Part shown: positions 25,131-36,392 of the stretch, piece after piece
How the letters are laid out: each line of letters opens with the position of its first letter
Numbering within the stretch: position 1 is the stretch's first letter
Assembly (NCBI GenBank): GCA_003856375.1
Contig: CP034120.1
Span: forward strand, 310,001-374,000
Length of the DNA stretch: 64,000 nucleotides
Source: Glaciecola amylolytica
GTDB taxonomy: Bacteria; Bacteroidota; Bacteroidia; Flavobacteriales_D; Crocinitomicaceae
Reading direction: 5' to 3'
The notes under the pieces: generated by a model
What the model saw: only the letters and a program-made list of their open reading frames with translations
What the model was told of the DNA's origin: nothing
Databases searched by the model: none
Program-made: the position numbers and the translations under genes

Positions 25131-25135
25131 AAGAA

Positions 25136-25143
25136 CAAAGATA
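25136..25143 (-). promoter_or_regulatory. Promoter -7 box for the helicase gene
   Basis: CAAAGATA on the + strand reads TATCTTTG on the - strand, an exact TAnnTTTG match with only five bases between its final G and the pcrA ATG. Suggests a leaderless or nearly leaderless mRNA. No -33 box is seen. Confidence 0.45.
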
Positions 25144-25190
25144 GCAACATTGCTTTATTATTCCGATCGGATGTTTTCCTCAGGATACAA

Positions 25191-25220
25191 ATTGCGTCAT
25201 TTTTATTCCTGATTGCGTCA
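25191..25220 (+). promoter_or_regulatory. Tandem direct repeats, candidate AraC-family activator site
   Basis: ATTGCGTCA occurs at 25191-25199 and again at 25212-25220: perfect 9-bp direct repeats exactly 21 bp apart, i.e. on the same face of the helix. The second ends two bases before the -33 TTG of the siderophore promoter. That is the arrangement of AraC-family class II activator sites, and an AraC-type gene lies at the operon's far end. A partial ATTGC at 25149 is in phase (42 bp upstream of the first). Confidence 0.6.
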
Positions 25221-25222
25221 GC

Positions 25223-25250
25223 TTGTTCTCGTATCGTGAATCTAGCTTTG
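25223..25250 (+). promoter_or_regulatory. Siderophore operon promoter
   Basis: TTG (-33) at 25223-25225, 17-bp spacer, TAGCTTTG (-7) at 25243-25250. Both boxes fit the Bacteroidota sigma-A consensus. The TTG opening the longest frame of the next gene is this -33 box, so the ATG at 25280 is the real start. I found no convincing Fur box. Confidence 0.7.
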
Positions 25251-25279
25251 CCGGCATAATACTTTTAAGTCAAACAAAG

Positions 25280-26782
25280 ATGATTGACACACTATTCCAA
25301 CATTGGACGGATGTTAAAACAACGAATTTTCTGAACAGAGATTCGGGAGATGAATACCGGGAGCAAATAGAAAAAGCAGTTTCTCTGGTTCTGGGATTTT
25401 TGAATAATGAACAGTTTCTCAGCGGGGAGTCGGCAGAGTTTTACCATTCGCTTAAGAATGAGCTGGCATTGAACCCTCATGAAAATGTGAGTCTGGAAAC
25501 GGCACTTTCTGTTTTGAAAGAGTCTTTTCTGGATCATACGGTTGCTTATCATCATCCGAATTACGTAGCACATTTAAATTGTCCGGTTTTGCTGCCGGCT
25601 TTGGTTGGTGATGTCATTTCCGGATCTGTAAATACTGCAATTGAAACCTGGGATCAGGCTACAACAGGAGTTTATATCGAGAAAGAAGTCATTCAATGGA
25701 CAGGGGCTACTTTGGGCATGAAAGCCGATTTTGACGGAATTTTTACTACCGGCGGAACCCAATCTAATTTAATGGCTTTGCTGATGATCCGGGATCATTA
25801 TGCGTTGACAAAATTCAATTGGAATGCAAAAGAAAAAGGCTGGAATCCTGAAATTTCCAAGTTTCGCGTTTTTTGTTCGGAGAAAGCACATTACAGTTTC
25901 CGTAAAAATGCTGCTTTGCTTGGAATGGGGTATGAATCGATCGTTCCGGTTAAAACGGATGATCGTTTTCGAATGGATGTTCAGGAGCTTAAAAACGCCA
26001 TTGAATTCGAAAAGTCTCAGGGGAATATTCCGGTAGCTGTGGTAGCTACATTGGGAACAACTGACTTTGGAAGTTTTGATCCGTTGAAGAGTATTGCAGA
26101 GATAACAGGAGAAAATGAGCTTTGGCTTCATGTTGACGGGGCATACGGAGGCTTTTTCGCACTGGCTGATCAATTTGAATCCAAATTCGAAGGGATGGAA
26201 TATGCCGATTCCTTAACGGTAGATTTTCATAAGTCGTTGTTCCAACCGCTTTGTGCAAGCGCTTTCCTGCTCAAAAAACCGGAATGCTTCAAGTACGTTT
26301 CTTACTATGCGGATTATCTCAATCCGTTGGAGAATAAAAATGACCTGACACCTGATTTGGTGGAGAAATCTCTTCAGACAACCCGCCGCTTTGACGCCTT
26401 AAAAGTTTGGCTTTCCCTGAAAGTGGTCGGAGAAAAGAAACTGGGTGAATACTTACTGAGAGTACATGAAATTATTCAGGAAACCTATCATCGGGCGAAA
26501 CTCGATCCCAATCTGGAATTCATTCATGAGCCGGAGTTATCGACACTGGTTTTTCGCTTTGTTTTTCAGAATCAGGAAGATGAAAACTGTCCGGATATGG
26601 TAAATAAATTCATTCGCAGTTCTCTGTTTAACGAAGGCGCGGCTTCTGTTGCAAGCACCCGCGTGGATGGGAAATTGTATCTGAAATTCACACTGTTGAA
26701 TCCGGAATCTTCGGCGGATCATCTTCTGGGAATCCTGGATCTTATCAAACAAAAAGGCTTCGAATACCAACAAAAAAACTGA
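25280..26782 (+). CDS. PLP-dependent decarboxylase (siderophore diamine formation)
   Basis: 500 residues, group II PLP decarboxylase related to L-2,4-diaminobutyrate and DfoJ-type lysine decarboxylases. GGTQSNLMALL, LHVDGAYGGFF and the PLP-binding TVDFHKSLFQPL (K318) are clear. In desferrioxamine-type pathways the homologue turns lysine into cadaverine, the substrate of the N-hydroxylase. The gene context (N-hydroxylase, acyltransferase-synthetase fusions) supports this, but ornithine to putrescine or diaminobutyrate to diaminopropane cannot be excluded. First gene of the operon, three bases before the next. Confidence 0.88.
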   Translation: MIDTLFQHWTDVKTTNFLNRDSGDEYREQIEKAVSLVLGFLNNEQFLSGESAEFYHSLKNELALNPHENVSLETALSVLKESFLDHTVAYHHPNYVAHLNCPVLLPALVGDVISGSVNTAIETWDQATTGVYIEKEVIQWTGATLGMKADFDGIFTTGGTQSNLMALLMIRDHYALTKFNWNAKEKGWNPEISKFRVFCSEKAHYSFRKNAALLGMGYESIVPVKTDDRFRMDVQELKNAIEFEKSQGNIPVAVVATLGTTDFGSFDPLKSIAEITGENELWLHVDGAYGGFFALADQFESKFEGMEYADSLTVDFHKSLFQPLCASAFLLKKPECFKYVSYYADYLNPLENKNDLTPDLVEKSLQTTRRFDALKVWLSLKVVGEKKLGEYLLRVHEIIQETYHRAKLDPNLEFIHEPELSTLVFRFVFQNQEDENCPDMVNKFIRSSLFNEGAASVASTRVDGKLYLKFTLLNPESSADHLLGILDLIKQKGFEYQQKN

Positions 26783-26785
26783 TTT

Positions 26786-28120
26786 ATGGAACAAAATAAT
26801 TCTTACGACTTTATTGCAATTGGTGTCGGACCATTCAATCTGGGACTTGCAGCGCTTACTAATCCGATCAAGGAACTGAATGGACTTTTTATTGATCGGG
26901 CAGAAACCTTCGACTGGCATCCGGGAATGATGCTTGAAAGTACCACACTTCAGATTCCGTTTCTGGCAGATTTGGTGACTTTGGCAGATCCTACGAATCC
27001 GTTCAGCTTTCTGAATTACGCGAAGGAAACCGGTAAAATCTATTCGTTTTACATCCGGGAGAATTTTCTCTTGCTGAGGAAAGAATACAATCAATATTGC
27101 AATTGGGTGATTCAAAAATTGCCGAATGTCTGCTTCGGGATTGAAGTTTCTCATATTGAATTTGATCAGCAAAACAACATCTATGTCGTTGAAACGCGCA
27201 ATGTCTCTACGAATGAGTTGAAAGTTTTTCGCACAAAAAAAATCGTGTTGGGAACAGGAACAACACCTTTTATACCTGAAAATTGCAGAGATCTGAAAGA
27301 CCGCCTGATTCATAATGCGCATTACCTTCATCACAAAACCAGGATTCAAAGTAAAAAACGGATTACGGTTGTTGGTAGCGGACAAAGTGCTGCTGAAGTT
27401 TTTTACGATCTGCTTCAGGATTCGGATACTTACAACTATGAGTTGAATTGGATTACGAGATCTGCCCGGTTTTTCCCCATGGAATATACCAAATTGACAC
27501 TGGAAATGACTTCTCCGGAGTACGTGGATTACTTCTATCATCTTCCGGATGAAACACGTGAGAAACTCAATAAAAATCAGAAGAATCTCTATAAAGGAAT
27601 CAATCAGGATCTGATAGCCGAAATATTCAATCTCTTGTATACGAAACAACTCGACGGGGATTTAAAAGTAAGTCTTCGCACCAATTCCGAATTGTATCAG
27701 ATCAATGAAAAAGACGGAGTGTTTGAACTCACTTTTCATCAGCAGGAACAAAACAAGTTTTACCGTCATGAAACGGATGAGGTTATTCTTGCTACCGGTT
27801 ATCATTACCAACAGCCGGCTTTTATTGAAGGAATCAAAGACCGAATCAATTGGGATGAAAAAGGGCGTTACGCGGTTTCGCGCGATTATACGATTGACTT
27901 AAACGAAAATGAAATCTTTGTTCAGAATGCGGAACAGCATACGCATGGATTTGTGACTCCGGATCTTGGGATGGTTGCTTACCGCAATTCAATCATCATC
28001 AATCAGCTTCTGGGACGGGAATACTACGCTGTGGAGAAGAAAATTGCATTCCAGCAATTCGAAGTGAATGCAGAAGAAGAGGTTTTTATAGATGCTTTAC
28101 AACTGCAGCATGAGTCTTAG
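26786..28120 (+). CDS. Diamine/lysine N-hydroxylase of the IucD/SidA/PvdA family
   Basis: 444 residues. FAD- and NADPH-dependent monooxygenase that would hydroxylate a terminal amine, giving the N-hydroxy group of a hydroxamate. FAD motif GVGPFNLGLAAL (about 12-23), FDWHPGMMLE, LQIPFLADLVTLADPTNPFSF, NADPH motif VVGSGQSAAEVFYDL and C-terminal ATGYHYQ are family hallmarks. Following a decarboxylase, the likely substrate is the free diamine, as for DfoA. Overlaps the exporter gene by 11 bases. Confidence 0.92.
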   Translation: MEQNNSYDFIAIGVGPFNLGLAALTNPIKELNGLFIDRAETFDWHPGMMLESTTLQIPFLADLVTLADPTNPFSFLNYAKETGKIYSFYIRENFLLLRKEYNQYCNWVIQKLPNVCFGIEVSHIEFDQQNNIYVVETRNVSTNELKVFRTKKIVLGTGTTPFIPENCRDLKDRLIHNAHYLHHKTRIQSKKRITVVGSGQSAAEVFYDLLQDSDTYNYELNWITRSARFFPMEYTKLTLEMTSPEYVDYFYHLPDETREKLNKNQKNLYKGINQDLIAEIFNLLYTKQLDGDLKVSLRTNSELYQINEKDGVFELTFHQQEQNKFYRHETDEVILATGYHYQQPAFIEGIKDRINWDEKGRYAVSRDYTIDLNENEIFVQNAEQHTHGFVTPDLGMVAYRNSIIINQLLGREYYAVEKKIAFQQFEVNAEEEVFIDALQLQHES

Positions 28121-29294
28121 AACTTTTTTGGTTTCAATGACCTTCATTGCGGTAGTCAGTGATTATCTGCTGCATCCGTTTTATCCTCATTTCTTTGCTT
28201 TGCGCTTTCAGGTTGAAGACAGCAGGCATGTTGGTTATTATTTTTCAGCACTTTGTCTGGTCGTAATGATCGCGTTTCCGTTTTGGGCTTTTATTGCCAA
28301 ATGGATTACAGAACTCTGGATCTTGATTTTCACACAGTTTTGCGCCGGAATTCTGGCTCTCTATTGTTTATGGACCGATTCACTGGTGTTGTTCTGGGTT
28401 GTTTCGCTGGTGATGGTGTTTTTCAAAGGAAGTTATCTTTTGGTTTATCCCTATACGTTGAAAGTTGTTCCTGAAACGGAACATCACAACACGATCGGAT
28501 TGTTGTCCGTGATTGTTCACATGGGAAGTATTCTGGGAGCATTGATCGGTGGTTTTGTTGTTGGATTTGTACATCCTGCAAAAGCTTTTCTGGTAATGGC
28601 AGCGGGCGATTTTATCCAGATGGGAATGAGTTTTTACCTCTTGCGCAGCAAGCGTTTTCAATTGGATAATCTGCAGAAAGAAACACAGGATTCGGTTGGT
28701 GAAGGAAAATCGCACCTGAATTATTTTCTTTTGAAATTGGCATTGGTTACGATGCTCCTGTATTTCAGTGATTACCTGATCCGGCCATTTTTTACCAGAT
28801 ACTGGGAAAGTGTTTCCGTTTACAATTCAAACCTGATTTCAGGGTGTATTTATGCCATTCCGGGATTTATAGCCCTGATTGCCCTGTGGTATAACGCGAA
28901 GTCGGAAAAACCGCTGCTTCTGAACAAACAACTCCTAACAGCGCTGATGTTGGGAATGATCGGTTTGGTACTGCAAGGAATTCCGAATGAATGGACGCTG
29001 ATAAGCGGAAGAATGATTTATGGCTGGGCGCTGTTTCAGGCAACGGTCAAATTCGACGTGCTTTTATTCCAGAATACCACTCCGGAGCGCTATGCTCTGG
29101 ATTACAGTAAGGTTTATTTGGCTCAAAGTTTCGGAGTTCTGGTAGCTTCTTCCATGAGTGGAATTCTGGTTTCCCTTGTCGATTATTCGATACCGTTTCC
29201 TTTTGCAGCTTTGGGGTTTGCACTCACATTGACGCTGTTTTTAGTGTTTTTCGTCCGGTTTAAGAATGCAATCGGTAAAGAAGTGAAGATATGA
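28110..29294 (+). CDS. MFS transporter, probable siderophore exporter
   Basis: 394 residues with about 11-12 hydrophobic helices covering nearly the whole chain. It fits the major facilitator superfamily by size and pattern (a loop after helix 6 near QLDNLQKETQDSVGEGK). An ATG at 28092 in frame is an alternative start, adding six residues. Its place inside the biosynthetic operon, overlapping the gene before (11 bases) and after (4 bases), argues for export of the finished siderophore; import of the iron complex or fragments is less likely but not excluded. Confidence 0.85.
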   Translation: MSLRTFLVSMTFIAVVSDYLLHPFYPHFFALRFQVEDSRHVGYYFSALCLVVMIAFPFWAFIAKWITELWILIFTQFCAGILALYCLWTDSLVLFWVVSLVMVFFKGSYLLVYPYTLKVVPETEHHNTIGLLSVIVHMGSILGALIGGFVVGFVHPAKAFLVMAAGDFIQMGMSFYLLRSKRFQLDNLQKETQDSVGEGKSHLNYFLLKLALVTMLLYFSDYLIRPFFTRYWESVSVYNSNLISGCIYAIPGFIALIALWYNAKSEKPLLLNKQLLTALMLGMIGLVLQGIPNEWTLISGRMIYGWALFQATVKFDVLLFQNTTPERYALDYSKVYLAQSFGVLVASSMSGILVSLVDYSIPFPFAALGFALTLTLFLVFFVRFKNAIGKEVKI

Positions 29295-31699
29295 AAACGC
29301 TTTATTCAAAAATAGAAGGCTTGGGAGAAATCAGGATCCGGCCATTTGACCCGGAAAAGGATACGGATTTTCTGCATCAGTGGGCCAATCAGGAATATGC
29401 TTATTTCTGGGGACTTCAAAAAACCACCCGCGAGGAAGTGTATCTGGAATATCAGCGTTTGACGGAACAGCAGGAATACGAGATTTATGTCGGTGAGTGG
29501 AATCAGAATCCGTTGTTTCTTTTTGAAAGCTACAATCCTGATTTTGATCTGATCCGGGATTACTACGAAGTTCAGTCCGGAGACCGAGGAGTACACATCA
29601 TCGTTGCTCCGGTATCTGTTCGTGTTCCCAATTTCACCTGGCATGTATTTACAATCATTGCAAAATTTCTTTTCACGGATGCATCTACCCTAAGAATCCT
29701 GGTTGAGCCCGATATCCGGAACAAGAAAATGTTTGCTCTTTGCGAACGAATTGGTTTCAGATTGGGAAAAGTGGTAGAGCTGCCGCATAAAACCGCTCAA
29801 CTGGCTTATCTGGAAAGAAGACATTTTCAACAAATTATTTCAACAACAATTATTCAAAAACGCAGTAGCATGAATACCATCGATAACTCCTTGTCTCCAC
29901 AAACGGCTGCAAAACATATTCAGCAGCATTTTTCGGAAAAGGCCAATATTGCTTTGATCAAAAAAGCATTGACAGAGTTTAGCCACGAACAATTGATAAA
30001 ACCTGTTCTACAAACAAATAGCGGAATCCTGAATGAATACATCGTTCAGAGCGATGACCCGGAAATCACTTATCAATTCACAGCAAAACAAATGCTGCTC
30101 AATCATTTGCAGATTCGCCCCGATTCAATCCGTAAGATTGAGAAGGGGGTTGAGAAAAGTCCGGATGCGGTGCTTTTTATCAAAGAATTCCGGAAGCAAT
30201 TGGGTTTGTCCGATAAGCAATTACCGGTTTATCTGGAAGAAATCATCAGCACCCTTCACGGCAGCATGTACAAATTAGCCAAGGGAAATCCACCGGCTGA
30301 AGAACTGGTGCATGCTTCGTTTCAGACAATTGAGCAAAGCATGACGGAAGGACATCCGTGTTTTGTAGCCAACAACGGACGAATTGGTTTCGACAGTGGA
30401 GATTATCGTGCCTACGCTCCGGAAGCAGGAAATTCTTTCTCACTCTTATGGCTGGCAGGAAATGTGTCGCGTGTAAAGTTTAGCGGTTCGGAGGAATTAA
30501 CGTATGATCAGGTGATTACTCAGGAGTTGAGTGAGCATGAGATCAGCTATTTCAATGAAATAATACGAAGTAAAGGGTTGGATCCGAAGGATTATCTTTT
30601 TCTGCCGATTCATCCCTGGCAGTGGTTTAATAAACTGGTACACATTTACACTCCTGAACTTGCAGCCGGAAATCTGATTTGTCTGGGATATGGTGAAGAT
30701 CAGTATTTGGCGCAGCAGTCGATCCGAACGCTTTTTAACACCTCGAATCCGCATAAGTTTTATACAAAATCCGCATTGTCTATCCTGAATATGGGCTTTA
30801 TGCGCGGGTTGCCGCATTATTATCTGGGGACGGCTCCGGTGATGGCGCTTTGGCTGGAAAACCTGCTTTACAACGATTCTTTCCTTGCAGAAAACGGTTT
30901 TCGAATGTTGAGTGAAGTTGCCTCTGTAAGTTACGTAAATCCTTATTTCGAAGAGTTTGGACCGCACAATGATTATAACAAAATGCTGGCATCGCTTTGG
31001 AGAGAAAGTCCGGTGAAAGACCTGAACGAAAATGAGCAGCTTCTTACCATGGCGGCGCTTGTTCATGTGGACCAGAATGACCGGGGCTTACTTCCTGAGT
31101 TGATTCTGGCTTCAGGATTGAGTGTTGAAAACTGGCTGAGCGCTTATTTTGATGCGTATCTGATTCCTTTGCTGCATTGTTTTTATCAGTATGATCTTGT
31201 TTTTATGCCGCATGGAGAAAACATTATTCTGAAATTGGAAAACCATATTCCGAAGCATATTTTCCTGAAAGACATCACGGAAGAAGCATGTATTTTGAAT
31301 AAAGAGGCCGTATTACCGGAAGCATTGAACCGAATGATAACGGATGTGCCGGAAGATCTGAAACTGCTTTCCGTTTTTATAGATGTTTTCGATGATTTTT
31401 TCCGTTTCATGACTCCGATTCTCGATGAACAAATGGGCTTTCCGGAAAGTGTTTTCTGGAAAACGCTGGCCGATTCTATCAGAAGCTATCAATCGCGTTT
31501 CCCGGAGTTGAAAGAGAAGTTTGAGCAATACGATCTTTTTGCGGACGAATTTCTTTTGTCTTGTCTGAACCGCTTGCAGATAAACAATAACCGGCAAATG
31601 ATTGATCTGGATGATCCGGTTGCACGACTACAATTTACAGGAAAATTGGAAAATCCGCTTTCAGCATTTAAACAGGTATTTATTCCGGTTGAAAACTAA
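29291..31699 (+). CDS. GNAT acyltransferase-IucA/IucC siderophore synthetase fusion, copy 1
   Basis: 802 residues in one open frame. Residues 1-185 are a GNAT domain of the AlcB/RhbD/IucB type (GVHIIVAPV, LVEPDIRNKKMFALC, ELPHKTAQLAYL), which would acylate the N-hydroxyamine with, for example, succinyl-CoA. Residues about 205-800 are an NRPS-independent siderophore synthetase: MTEGHPCFVANNGRIGF (E353), PIHPWQWFNK (H441), RTLFNTSNPHKFY, FMPHGENIILKLENH, LKDITEE. M194 in the linker may mark a former separate start. The same architecture is known in DfoC. It would form amide bonds between N-hydroxy-N-acyl diamines, giving linear or cyclic hydroxamates. Confidence 0.92.
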   Translation: MKTLYSKIEGLGEIRIRPFDPEKDTDFLHQWANQEYAYFWGLQKTTREEVYLEYQRLTEQQEYEIYVGEWNQNPLFLFESYNPDFDLIRDYYEVQSGDRGVHIIVAPVSVRVPNFTWHVFTIIAKFLFTDASTLRILVEPDIRNKKMFALCERIGFRLGKVVELPHKTAQLAYLERRHFQQIISTTIIQKRSSMNTIDNSLSPQTAAKHIQQHFSEKANIALIKKALTEFSHEQLIKPVLQTNSGILNEYIVQSDDPEITYQFTAKQMLLNHLQIRPDSIRKIEKGVEKSPDAVLFIKEFRKQLGLSDKQLPVYLEEIISTLHGSMYKLAKGNPPAEELVHASFQTIEQSMTEGHPCFVANNGRIGFDSGDYRAYAPEAGNSFSLLWLAGNVSRVKFSGSEELTYDQVITQELSEHEISYFNEIIRSKGLDPKDYLFLPIHPWQWFNKLVHIYTPELAAGNLICLGYGEDQYLAQQSIRTLFNTSNPHKFYTKSALSILNMGFMRGLPHYYLGTAPVMALWLENLLYNDSFLAENGFRMLSEVASVSYVNPYFEEFGPHNDYNKMLASLWRESPVKDLNENEQLLTMAALVHVDQNDRGLLPELILASGLSVENWLSAYFDAYLIPLLHCFYQYDLVFMPHGENIILKLENHIPKHIFLKDITEEACILNKEAVLPEALNRMITDVPEDLKLLSVFIDVFDDFFRFMTPILDEQMGFPESVFWKTLADSIRSYQSRFPELKEKFEQYDLFADEFLLSCLNRLQINNNRQMIDLDDPVARLQFTGKLENPLSAFKQVFIPVEN

Positions 31700-31711
31700 G
31701 AGTTTATAGTT

Positions 31712-34063
31712 ATGACGACGTTATTTTCTAAAAAAATAAAAACAATCGGAGAACTTACCATCAGACCGATAAATCTGGCGGATGATGCTTCATTCATCTA
31801 CGAGTGGGTGACGCAACCATATGCAGAATACTGGGGAATGCAGCATTACTCGAAAGAAGAGTTTTTGGAGTGTTACGAAGCGCTTTTATCTCCGGAACAT
31901 TACAATGCATACATCGGAGAAAGGAACGGGATTCCTGTTTTTTTAGTAGAGCAGTACGATCCGGCTTACGACCTTCTGAATGAACACATACATATTCAAA
32001 AAGGGGATACGGGAATGCATATTTTGCTTGCTCCGCCGGTGGAATACATTCCCGGATTCTCCTGGTTTGTGTTTCGAACGGTAATGGAATTCCTGTTTTC
32101 GGATTCGGGAACGAAAAGAGTAGTGGTTGAACCGGATGTCAGAAATGATAAAATTCATAAACTCAACAAAAAAGCGGGATTCATCTATAAAAAACACATT
32201 TCATTTCCGCATAAAACTGCCTGGCTTGCCATTTGTAATCGCTTTGATTTCGAGGCTGCTCTTCAATCGATAAATGATTTGGAGACAGCGGAATACCTTC
32301 CTTCGTCCTTGGCGTGGAATAAAGTCAACCGGAATCTGATTAGAAAAGCCATCAGTGAAACGGCACATGAATTGATTCTGGAACCGGAATTAGTGGAAGA
32401 GCATACGTTTGGAAGTCAATACCGTTTGCAGGTAGCTGATGGAGTAAGTTATTATTTTGATGCCATTATTCGCTCTCTTGAACATTGGGATGTGGACTCT
32501 TTGAGTATTTCCCGGATAGAGAATGGTCGGGAGACGAAGCTGGATGCGCTTCGGTTTATTCAGGAATTTCAGCATGAATTAGCTATTCCGGATGAATTTT
32601 TACCGACGTATCTGGAAGAAATTACCAATACGCTTCAAAGCAAAGCCTATTTGTCAGAACACGAAAAGTTCTCAGTATCGGAGCTTGTTGATCGCGATTT
32701 TCAGGAGATTGAACATGCAATGACAGAAGGGCATCCGTGTTTTATAGCGAACAGCGGGCGCATCGGATTTGGTAATTCGGATTTTTTCAATTACTCACCG
32801 GAAGCATCCGAATCCTTTCGTTTGGTTTGGCTTGCTGCGCACAAAGATTTCACCACATTTACAGCTGTGTCAGAATCCTACGTGGATTTTATAAAACGCG
32901 AACTTTCGGAAGAAGATCTGGCTGCTTTTTCCAGGCAGCTTCACGATAGAGGGTTGGAAGAAAACGAGTTCTGGTACATCCCTGTTCATCCGTGGCAGTG
33001 GGACAATAAGATCAGCAGGATTTACACCCCGGATTTATGTTCGGGGCGTTTGATTTATCTTGGAGAAAGCAGTGATCAGTATTCTCCTCAGCAATCTATC
33101 AGAACGCTTTTCAATACCAGTGATTCGAAGAAGCATTATGTCAAAACAGCACTTTCAATTTTGAACATGGGTTTTCTGAGAGGACTTTCTGCTCATTACA
33201 TGAAAAGTACTCCTGCAATTACCCAATGGATAACGGACTATTTGCAGGCCGATCCGGAATTGAAGCTTTGTGGATTTCAAATGCTGGATGAGCTTGCTAC
33301 GATCGGCTATGAAAGCGAAGTATATGCTCCGTTGGGTTACCGTCATCCGAATAATAAAATGTTGGCAGCATTGTGGAGACAAAGTCCGGCTGAAAAATTA
33401 AAACCGGGACAAAAGGCTTTTACGATGGCTTCCTTACTTCATCTGGATACCAATAATCAATCATTTCTGATGCAGCTGATTCAGCGTTCCGGAAAATCTG
33501 CCGATGAATGGATTGAAGCATATCTGAATGTTTACCTGCGGCCATTGATTCACTGTTTGTATCAATATCATCTCGTTTTTATGCCACATGGAGAAAATTG
33601 CCTGCTTGTTGTGGAGGAAGGGCTTCCTGTTGGTTTGTTGATGAAAGATATTACCGAGGAGATTATGTTGTTCGATGAAGAACTTCCATTGAATGCATCC
33701 GTTGAACGCGTACGAACCAAAGCAAGTGATGAAATGCAGGTGCTTGCAATTTATACAGATGTATTTGATTGTTTTTTCCGCTTTTTGACAGCAATCCTCG
33801 AAGCGCATGGTGCTTATCCTTCGACGTTGTTTTGGAACAAAGTCTCCGAATGTATCCTGAATTACCAGAAAGCACATCCGGAATTGGATTCTGAGTTTAA
33901 AAGACTGGATCTTTTCCGGGAAGTTTTCAAACGGGTTTGTCTGAACAGGCTGCAATTGAGTAACACCAAAAACATGCTCGATTTGTCCAATCCGATAGAA
34001 AGTCTAAAAGCGGAGGGCTTCCTTTTGAATCCGTTGTATGCAGCAATAACTGAAACTGTTTAA
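31712..34063 (+). CDS. GNAT acyltransferase-IucA/IucC siderophore synthetase fusion, copy 2
   Basis: 783 residues, a full-length paralogue of the preceding gene in the same domain order. GNAT domain about 1-178 (GMHILLAPPVEY, VVEPDVRNDKIHKL, SFPHKTAWLAI); synthetase about 195-780 with MTEGHPCFIANSGRIGF (E339), PVHPWQWDNK (H426), RTLFNTSDSKKHY, FMPHGENCLLVVEEG, MKDITEE. All motifs visible in copy 1 are kept, so both look active. The linker is shorter and the two are clearly diverged, suggesting different acyl groups or different condensation steps rather than a recent duplicate. Confidence 0.92.
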   Translation: MTTLFSKKIKTIGELTIRPINLADDASFIYEWVTQPYAEYWGMQHYSKEEFLECYEALLSPEHYNAYIGERNGIPVFLVEQYDPAYDLLNEHIHIQKGDTGMHILLAPPVEYIPGFSWFVFRTVMEFLFSDSGTKRVVVEPDVRNDKIHKLNKKAGFIYKKHISFPHKTAWLAICNRFDFEAALQSINDLETAEYLPSSLAWNKVNRNLIRKAISETAHELILEPELVEEHTFGSQYRLQVADGVSYYFDAIIRSLEHWDVDSLSISRIENGRETKLDALRFIQEFQHELAIPDEFLPTYLEEITNTLQSKAYLSEHEKFSVSELVDRDFQEIEHAMTEGHPCFIANSGRIGFGNSDFFNYSPEASESFRLVWLAAHKDFTTFTAVSESYVDFIKRELSEEDLAAFSRQLHDRGLEENEFWYIPVHPWQWDNKISRIYTPDLCSGRLIYLGESSDQYSPQQSIRTLFNTSDSKKHYVKTALSILNMGFLRGLSAHYMKSTPAITQWITDYLQADPELKLCGFQMLDELATIGYESEVYAPLGYRHPNNKMLAALWRQSPAEKLKPGQKAFTMASLLHLDTNNQSFLMQLIQRSGKSADEWIEAYLNVYLRPLIHCLYQYHLVFMPHGENCLLVVEEGLPVGLLMKDITEEIMLFDEELPLNASVERVRTKASDEMQVLAIYTDVFDCFFRFLTAILEAHGAYPSTLFWNKVSECILNYQKAHPELDSEFKRLDLFREVFKRVCLNRLQLSNTKNMLDLSNPIESLKAEGFLLNPLYAAITETV

Positions 34064-34066
34064 GAA

Positions 34067-35161
34067 ATGAATAAAACTCAGCCAACCCGCATTGAGGGAA
34101 TCGATTTTGCAAGAGGGATCAGCATTTTTATGGTCATTCTGGTTCATACACTCTGGATGAACGGAACCATTCCGGTTCAGGAAGGTTGGTTGGGGAATAT
34201 CATCCATTTTATCGGTAAAGGAACAGGAATGTTTCTGATAACGATGGGAGTTTCTTTCATGGTTTCCCGCAATAACAGCGCGCTTCGCTCCATACGAAGA
34301 GGAGTTTTGTTGCTGTTGACGGCATATACCATGAATTTTCTGAAGTTTGTGCTTCCGGTTCTGGTGAATGTGATGCCGGAAGATTTTATCCGGGCTTACG
34401 GCTGGCACTCTCCGCTGAATTCGGATCAATACATTTACTTGATAACTACCGGAGATATTTTGCAGTTAGCCGGATACGCTTTATTGATCATGGGACTGAT
34501 GCGGAAATTCTGTTCAAACAAATATGTGTATTTGATTGCTGCAGGTGTCGTAATTATCTCACCGATTTTTCTGAGGGGACTGCACACAGGATATGTTGTG
34601 ACGGATTATTTTTTGGATTTGCTTTGCAGCAATAACTGGCATATTTATTTTTCACTTTGCCCCTGGATGTCCTTTATTTTTGTCGGGATGTTCTTCGGGG
34701 CTTTGTATGTGGAGAAAGGAAGAAGTCTTCGAGCGTTTCATTCCATGCTGCCGGTCGGATTGGTTTTATTCATCGCTGGAATTGGCTTTCTATTGATGAA
34801 TTTCGATTTCCATTTCGGTGATTTCTATCATTTAGGACCCGGTGGAAGCATTTATTTGATTGGGTTTAATTTACTGCTGATTCGTCTGGCTTTTTTCACT
34901 GTAAAAGCGATGCCGTTCAACAAACTCAAAAGAGTTGTTTATTACATGAGCAGCAGGGTAACGAGTTTATACTTCATTCAATGGGTATTGATTTGTTGGG
35001 GAATGGCCCTTTTCGGATACCAGAAACAGCCTGAAATGATCGTTATTCTGTTGATGATTTTCTATGCTGTTCTGACATTTTCGGTTCAAAAGGTAATGGA
35101 CAGAATACTTTTGTGGATGAAGAGGAAAAAACAGATAGAAACACCGGTAATCGTTCAATAA
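34067..35161 (+). CDS. Multi-pass membrane acyltransferase (HGSNAT/acyltransferase-3-like)
   Basis: 364 residues with about 10 hydrophobic helices. The N-terminal RIEGIDFARGISIFMVILVH matches the beginning of heparan-alpha-glucosaminide N-acetyltransferase-like (DUF1624/DUF418-like) and acyltransferase-3 membrane proteins, whose histidine in helix 1 is functionally important. Three bases after the second synthetase, so part of the operon. It may acylate the siderophore at the membrane or aid its release; this is inference from location. It is the last gene before the convergent regulator (16 bases between the stops). Confidence 0.75.
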   Translation: MNKTQPTRIEGIDFARGISIFMVILVHTLWMNGTIPVQEGWLGNIIHFIGKGTGMFLITMGVSFMVSRNNSALRSIRRGVLLLLTAYTMNFLKFVLPVLVNVMPEDFIRAYGWHSPLNSDQYIYLITTGDILQLAGYALLIMGLMRKFCSNKYVYLIAAGVVIISPIFLRGLHTGYVVTDYFLDLLCSNNWHIYFSLCPWMSFIFVGMFFGALYVEKGRSLRAFHSMLPVGLVLFIAGIGFLLMNFDFHFGDFYHLGPGGSIYLIGFNLLLIRLAFFTVKAMPFNKLKRVVYYMSSRVTSLYFIQWVLICWGMALFGYQKQPEMIVILLMIFYAVLTFSVQKVMDRILLWMKRKKQIETPVIVQ

Positions 35162-35177
35162 GTTCTTCCCCTGAGAA

Positions 35178-36176
35178 TCAGTTTTGATCTCTGAACTGGC
35201 TTGGAGAAATCCCGGTGTGTTTGCGGAAAGCACAGGTGAAATGCGTTGCGTTTTTGTATCCTACTTTTTCCGCAATGAGATAAATCGGGTCCTGAGAGAA
35301 TTGAAGAAACTCTTTGGCCTTTCGAATGCGCTGTTCCATTCCGTAAACAGAGATCGTCATTTTAAACACGCGTTTGAATTCGCGTTTTAGTGTGTTTTCA
35401 TTTTGCCCGATTTTACTTGCCAGTTCTTTAATGGTCCAATGTTTATCCGGGTGCTGCTGAATCAGACATCGTACTTCCTGTAATTGTTTCAGAATATTCG
35501 ATCTGTAAGAAACCGAGGAGCAAAGCGGCTTTTGTTTTTGATCAAAATGAAGCATCAGCAATTCCAGGATTTTGCTTTCCAGGAAAATGCGTTTGAATAT
35601 TCCCATGTGCTGATCCTGCAGAATCTCATTGAGGATGGAATACTTTTCAGGATTGATGTATGAAGTCATGTCAATAATCTGCTGATATTCGGCTAAAAGG
35701 ATTAATTGATGCTTGATCAGAAATTGAAGGGAAAGCGTAAACTTGATTTCAAACCAGTTCTGACCGGGAGGAAAATGGATTGTTCCTCTGGCTTTTTGAA
35801 AATATCCCCAGTAAGTATCCATCGTTTCCAACACACAGGATGCTGCTTCATCGTCTGCTGAAATGATCTGTTCTCCGTCAATCAGGTAGGAAAGTACAAT
35901 GGTGGCTTTGTCATAATTGAAGACAGCCGTCAGCGGATTTTTAAGAATTGTTCGGGTGATTTCAACCGCAACGCCCGGGAAAAAATAGGCGTGCTGCTTT
36001 CCTGTTCCAAAAGCAGGATTCAGAGTGAGTTCGTCATGATCTAGTCCGGGATAAGAGTTCCGGACGTTCAGCAGGAAAATTTCATCCGGTTCTCTTAGTA
36101 CTTCTTTTGTTTCAAGAAATAGTGAGTGGTTTATCGGTTTGGAAGATTGTATCGAATAGTTTTTTGAAATAGTCAT
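35178..36176 (-). CDS. AraC-family transcriptional regulator
   Basis: 332 residues. The C-terminal about 100 residues hold the paired helix-turn-helix: WTIKELASKIGQNENTLKREF and YLIAEKVGYKNATHFTCAFR, ending GISPSQFRDQN. The N-terminal about 220 residues are a sensor region with no named fold. The type resembles PchR/YbtA-like siderophore activators, which sense the ferric siderophore in the cytoplasm. Convergent with, and 16 bases from, the siderophore operon; the direct repeats at 25191-25220 are its likely site (inference). Confidence 0.88.
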   Translation of the reverse strand: MTISKNYSIQSSKPINHSLFLETKEVLREPDEIFLLNVRNSYPGLDHDELTLNPAFGTGKQHAYFFPGVAVEITRTILKNPLTAVFNYDKATIVLSYLIDGEQIISADDEAASCVLETMDTYWGYFQKARGTIHFPPGQNWFEIKFTLSLQFLIKHQLILLAEYQQIIDMTSYINPEKYSILNEILQDQHMGIFKRIFLESKILELLMLHFDQKQKPLCSSVSYRSNILKQLQEVRCLIQQHPDKHWTIKELASKIGQNENTLKREFKRVFKMTISVYGMEQRIRKAKEFLQFSQDPIYLIAEKVGYKNATHFTCAFRKHTGISPSQFRDQN

Positions 36177-36362
36177 AAAGCATCTACAATCGTACTACAA
36201 GGTTATAGTAAGAAGAATTGGTATGCAATACGATCTTTTTGGTATTTAACAGCGAGAACTACCTTTTGTTAGGTATTTCACCTTTCAAAGAATAAATTAA
36301 GAAATTGAAAAATAAAATCTGCAATCGCAGGGATAGATAGGAACGTAAAAGAAGATTCCTGT

Positions 36363-36370
36363 TATTTTTG
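36363..36370 (+). promoter_or_regulatory. Promoter -7 box (TATTTTTG) of the fucosidase gene
   Basis: Exact TAnnTTTG match 22 bases before the ATG at 36393, without an evident -33 box. The spacer to the divergent AraC gene also holds a TACCT/AGGTA inverted repeat near 36262-36277. Confidence 0.5.
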
Positions 36371-36392
36371 ACTTCAATCGAAGAAAAAGATC

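Follow-up and report, generated by a model that had tools for sequence, protein, structure and literature searches.

The window analysed here, a 64-kb stretch of Glaciecola amylolytica DNA, carries two sets of acyltransferase (C) and synthetase (D) domains within one operon. We hold with about even confidence that this is a bsb-type (bisucaberin B/tenacibactin-type) NRPS-independent cluster gained as one block, in which C1/D1 performs acyl-capping and C2/D2 chain-building, so that an unsymmetrical, linear, capped hydroxamate would result. The locus consists of the following features:

25191-25220, forward strand: predicted operator preceding the operon, a pair of ATTGCGTCA copies that start at 25191 and 25212, 21 bp apart
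25280-26782, forward strand: bsbA-like PLP decarboxylase, predicted to convert lysine to cadaverine (PF00282, 207 bits)
26786-28120, forward strand: bsbB-like N-hydroxylase of the L-lysine/L-ornithine monooxygenase family (PF13434, 422 bits)
28092-29294, forward strand: bsbE-like predicted MFS exporter (PF07690)
29291-31699, forward strand: CD1, the first fusion, GNAT C1 and IucA/IucC synthetase D1, BsbCD1-type, 802 aa
31712-34063, forward strand: CD2, the second fusion, GNAT C2 and synthetase D2, equivalent to BsbC2 and BsbD2 joined, 783 aa
34067-35161, forward strand: HGSNAT-like integral membrane acyltransferase, with which the operon ends (PF07786, 61 bits)
35178-36176, reverse strand: AraC-family regulator, convergent to the operon and completing the unit (PF12833)

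The five genes from 25280 to 34063 are all intact and co-directional, with neighbours that overlap or are separated by no more than 12 bp, and the operon is longer than this interval, as the membrane acyltransferase gene starts 3 bp past CD2. The original prediction had described a decarboxylase, an N-hydroxylase, an MFS gene and two full-length GNAT-IucA/IucC fusions with EGHPC, HPWQW and PHKTA motifs; all of these are present, and the three motifs occur in both CD1 and CD2. A profile search found Acetyltransf_8, IucA_IucC and FhuF domains in both fusions with scores far over the cut-off, and each matches the solved DfoC structure (5o7o) along its entire length, at 777 and 748 bits. Identity between the two fusions is 42%, and the genome contains no IucA/IucC gene beyond these two. 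The top NCBIfam model of the decarboxylase is L-2,4-diaminobutyrate decarboxylase, with a score under that model's cut-off, and BsbA has been likened to the same family (PMC6164419). In the membrane acyltransferase, D13, R16, G17 and H27 are retained in at least 95% of 31 alignment rows.

The doubled C-D layout is already known as the bsb type, published in 2018 (PMC6164419), and the novelty first attributed to the two-fusion arrangement does not hold. The cluster cloned from Tenacibaculum mesophilum comprises bsbA, bsbB, bsbE (MFS), bsbCD1, bsbC2 and bsbD2 (PMC6164419). The window has the same genes in the same order, with decarboxylase, N-hydroxylase, MFS gene and both C-D sets in one operon. 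In the trees, where congeners represented T. mesophilum, the first set of the window is orthologous to CD1 and the second to C2/D2, and the D1 and D2 ortholog groups are shared with Tenacibaculum. The two clusters differ in that the second set of the window is a single fusion of 783 aa, as opposed to separate bsbC2 and bsbD2, in that the published description has no membrane acyltransferase or AraC gene, and in that the window cluster has no adjacent TonB receptor.

Comparison of 80 homologous loci yielded 26 with two C-type synthetases in one cluster (hereafter twin clusters). C2 and D2 are fused in 11 of these 26 other clusters and split in the remainder; because the fusion state varies within the group, it was not taken as defining the bsb type. 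Homologues of the membrane acyltransferase, the MFS protein and the AraC regulator are found in 25, 21 and 18 of the 26 twin clusters, respectively. In twin clusters without the MFS gene, an HGSNAT-like gene sits between the hydroxylase and CD1 instead (L045, L060, L074, L100 and L105). In Tenacibaculum loci the identity is 41-45% between C1 and C2 and 49-50% between D1 and D2; the published values for T. mesophilum are 44% and 50% (PMC6164419). Many clusters of this type have already been counted as bisucaberin B clusters in surveys (PMC10734526; PMC9323603), one of which lists 167 clusters so annotated automatically (PMC10734526).

Several loci depart from this distribution. A Flavobacterium-type twin cluster occurs in a Limnohabitans MAG (Pseudomonadota, L060), which suggests inter-phylum transfer or a misbinned contig, and in a Shewanella locus (L077, 7466-12361) an independent second C-D pair, split and diverged, precedes a normal fusion. 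Two IucA/IucC genes per Bacteroidota genome were also considered as a single pattern, which was rejected: the pattern is a mixture of twin C-type clusters and aerobactin-like clusters. The latter (L107, L108) likewise have two IucA/IucC genes per cluster, and differ in their C-terminal GNAT, synthetases of two types and other gene order.

The two copies are old. In the synthetase-domain trees, the D1 group has a support of 100, the D2 group 96 (resolved only in the smaller synthetase tree under a mixture model) and the single-synthetase group 99; the last takes in DesD, DfoC and AlcC, and both D1 and D2 fall outside it. A recent tandem duplicate was rejected, with the window D1 and D2 constrained as sisters (p-AU = 1.15e-6), which bears out the expectation that the fusions are diverged and do not represent a lineage-specific recent duplication. 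The trees place D1 and D2 in distinct ortholog groups that occur together, and show them to be two old paralogues. The closest relative of both window synthetase copies is Reichenbachiella versicolor (67% identity for D1 and 55% for D2). In the GNAT tree the C1 clade has a support of 98 and C2, a short domain, is unresolved; the sister test for the window C1 and C2 gave an AU P-value of 0.075 on this short domain.

The simplest alternative to divided labour is plain redundancy, in which C2/D2 alone make bisucaberin B and CD1 is inactive or dispensable. It draws on the published expression in Escherichia coli, where BsbD2 alone was sufficient for linear bisucaberin B, no macrocycle being formed, and BsbD1 yielded nothing detectable (PMC6164419). 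However, no twin cluster compared lacks D1, and in all 406 same-species-pair comparisons the D1 sequences are closer to each other than those of D2 (means 70% and 59%), so the copy without demonstrated function in 2018 belongs to the better-conserved group. Among 397 sampled Flavobacteriaceae genomes, a D1-type gene was found in five, with D2 about 2.4 kb away in all five, and no D2-type gene was found without D1. Furthermore, the 125 columns invariant in single-synthetase enzymes are mostly kept in the fusions, with some exceptions, and D1 retains the universally conserved core and differs at a coherent set of sites. The alignment thus agrees with the earlier expectation that neither fusion has lost core residues. 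Neither copy looks dead, and both appear to be under constraint, D1 being the more conserved; given this conservation of D1 and D2, a dead copy was judged unlikely, and redundancy as a whole is improbable.

Both copies carry fixed substitutions near the catalytic arginine (DesD Arg306). This arginine was identified from Arg306-to-Gln differences among solved DesD chains (two variants), and the fixed departures of D1 mostly lie at most 14 residues past it. The fixed residues of D1 are P508, L512, A515, M518, A519 and S547; in 7tgn numbering the departures are S323P, M327L, T330A, I333M, N334A and G362S, together with W88L in most sequences. The window fusions share domains, family and core motifs with DfoC of Erwinia amylovora, DesC/DesD and AlcC, which differ from them in having one synthetase per cluster, a macrocyclic product and Asn at DesD position 334. 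This position is Asn in 58 of 58 single synthetases, Thr in 29 of 29 D2 (Thr504 in the window CD2) and Ala in 30 of 30 D1. Ser or Thr is found there in IucC-type enzymes, which do not make macrocycles. One exception was observed in a Plesiocystis cluster (L163), where the D1 partner carries Asn. In the acyltransferase domain, the residues fixed in C1 are M147, F148 and C151, against I, H and N in C2 and most single enzymes. Clusters of Aeromicrobium and Nocardioides (L095, L096, L098 and L101) have an extra GNAT adjoining the fusion, which in L095 and L096 is also altered at the Asn position of the C1 signature. Because the residue signatures track clades, few independent events, not dozens, lie behind these correlations.

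Another possibility is a scheme in which both GNATs are succinyltransferases, the linear dimer comes from D2, and D1 sets chain length or closes the ring. Sharing a single monomer between two synthetases would be the simplest arrangement, and a single DesD is able to do both jobs (PMC9571020). However, co-expression of D1 and D2 in E. coli still gave no macrocycle (PMC6164419), and the known Tenacibaculum products are linear. Moreover, D1 lacks the Asn common to all single-synthetase homologues, and C1 is altered along with D1. We therefore consider it unlikely, and the separate macrocyclisation step proposed in the original prediction is not borne out. That the two sets differ in their diamine, with N-hydroxyputrescine going to C1/D1, N-hydroxycadaverine to C2/D2 and mixed products of the avaroferrin type as the result, is highly improbable: putrescine and cadaverine units are both known in the siderophore family (PMC6164419), but each cluster has a single decarboxylase and a single hydroxylase, and the Tenacibaculum products considered are cadaverine-based (PMC8767563, PMC12224167).

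We favour a division of labour with C1/D1 as acyl-capping module and C2/D2 as linear chain builder, because the siderophores published from Tenacibaculum are unsymmetrical linear hydroxamates with an acyl cap. They consist of an N-hydroxy-N-acylcadaverine end and N-hydroxy-N-succinylcadaverine (HSC) units (PMC8767563, PMC12224167), and tenacibactins K-M have a C15 acyl cap (PMC8767563). For T. maritimum, linear N-hydroxy-N-acylcadaverine and HSC siderophores are described, some of them N-acetylated at the amine end, and bisucaberin B was not detected (PMC12224167). These compounds have no gene assignment in the parts available (PMC8767563, PMC12224167). The product class predicted for the window cluster is alike (linear, cadaverine-succinate, acyl-capped), and the unsymmetrical or acyl-varied hydroxamate that had been proposed agrees with the published chemistry of Tenacibaculum.

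In the proposed pathway, lysine would be decarboxylated to cadaverine, which is then N-hydroxylated. C2 would succinylate N-hydroxycadaverine to HSC, and D2 would adenylate HSC and couple the units head to tail, leaving the ring open to give a linear chain. C1 would load a non-succinyl acyl group, from acetyl to fatty acyl, onto N-hydroxycadaverine, and D1 may couple this capped unit to HSC, yielding an unsymmetrical, linear, acyl-capped hydroxamate that the MFS protein would export. The two monomer types would match the two GNATs and two synthetases, the pockets of C2/D2 being near-canonical and those of C1/D1 changed. The HGSNAT-like membrane acyltransferase is a candidate for terminal N-acetylation, and may modify the free end in this or some other way. 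In the clusters of relatives, downstream genes encode an enoyl-CoA hydratase/isomerase, a fatty-acid-hydroxylase family protein, a nitroreductase and an alpha/beta hydrolase, which could tailor the acyl tail or end group.

More specifically, CD1 may be a dedicated acyl-capping module, with C1 using non-succinyl acyl-CoAs and D1 the capped unit, and the Asn-to-Thr change in D2 may block ring closure; this is a tentative proposal, which we put somewhat short of even. To our knowledge, such a dedicated role has not yet been described for any NIS fusion. The silence of BsbD1 would be expected under acyl-capping, because the 2018 assay supplied only HSC-forming genes and thus succinyl units. Streptomyces has a single promiscuous DesC/DesD set. 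Acyl desferrioxamines have been reported from Streptomyces as well (PMC12224167), and capped products from one set count against the capping role, since two sets are then not strictly needed. The uncapped T. mesophilum product, bisucaberin B, also counts against it (PMC6164419), as does the origin of the window from a genome outside Tenacibaculum.

No IucA/IucC gene was found in the 148 relatives searched, 13 of them of the same genus. In three congeners about 95-135 bp separate the flanking uvrD and fucosidase genes, against 11.3 kb here (window 25131-36392). The empty gap in the congeners indicates that the segment from the decarboxylase to the AraC gene arrived as one block, with an approximate right-hand border. 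No integrase was seen at the edges of the inserted block, and base composition of the block gave no sign of foreign origin, unlike the empty site.

The only two exact matches of ATTGCGTCA in the 64-kb window are those of the predicted operator. In 18 related clusters the decarboxylase is preceded by a CGTC-N17-CGTC repeat, and 13 of those 18 have a second one beside the AraC gene, mostly adjoining the TonB receptor (for example, L024 at 3388 and 15440, and L078 at 5757 and 20613). Clusters without the AraC gene nearly all have no such repeat. A spacing of two helical turns between the half-sites suits an activator of the AraC family, and the linked AraC protein would bind the 21-bp-spaced repeat and switch the operon on.

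In relatives, TonB receptor, DUF4374 and PepSY genes adjoin the cluster; a TonB receptor is absent beside the window cluster. About 160 kb away, the same genome has a receptor of 40% identity next to a DUF4374 gene. Its locus (L144, 6911-11615, at about 503 kb in the genome) also contains a divergent fatty-acid-hydroxylase-family gene and resembles the pieces that the window cluster lacks. A search near this locus found no operator half-site, so that gene similarity is what makes it a candidate for a link with the cluster. The receptor also occurs in four congeners without the siderophore cluster, which makes its role in uptake here uncertain.

The gene evidence supports a refined version of the divided-labour idea, which can now be put to sharp tests: the fusions are old paralogues, conserved side by side in the twin clusters surveyed, each with its own residue signature. 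The 2018 study singled out the doubled C and D genes as 'of particular interest', and its authors were unable to point to residues separating linear from ring-forming enzymes (PMC6164419). The Asn/Thr/Ala position by the catalytic arginine, together with the acyl-CoA preference of C1, offers cheap, specific tests of both questions. If CD1 is indeed a capping module, it would explain the doubling in bsb clusters and the acyl-capped products of the group, and acyl-capped siderophores would be tied to a cluster that is common in Bacteroidota and usually receives an automatic bisucaberin B label.
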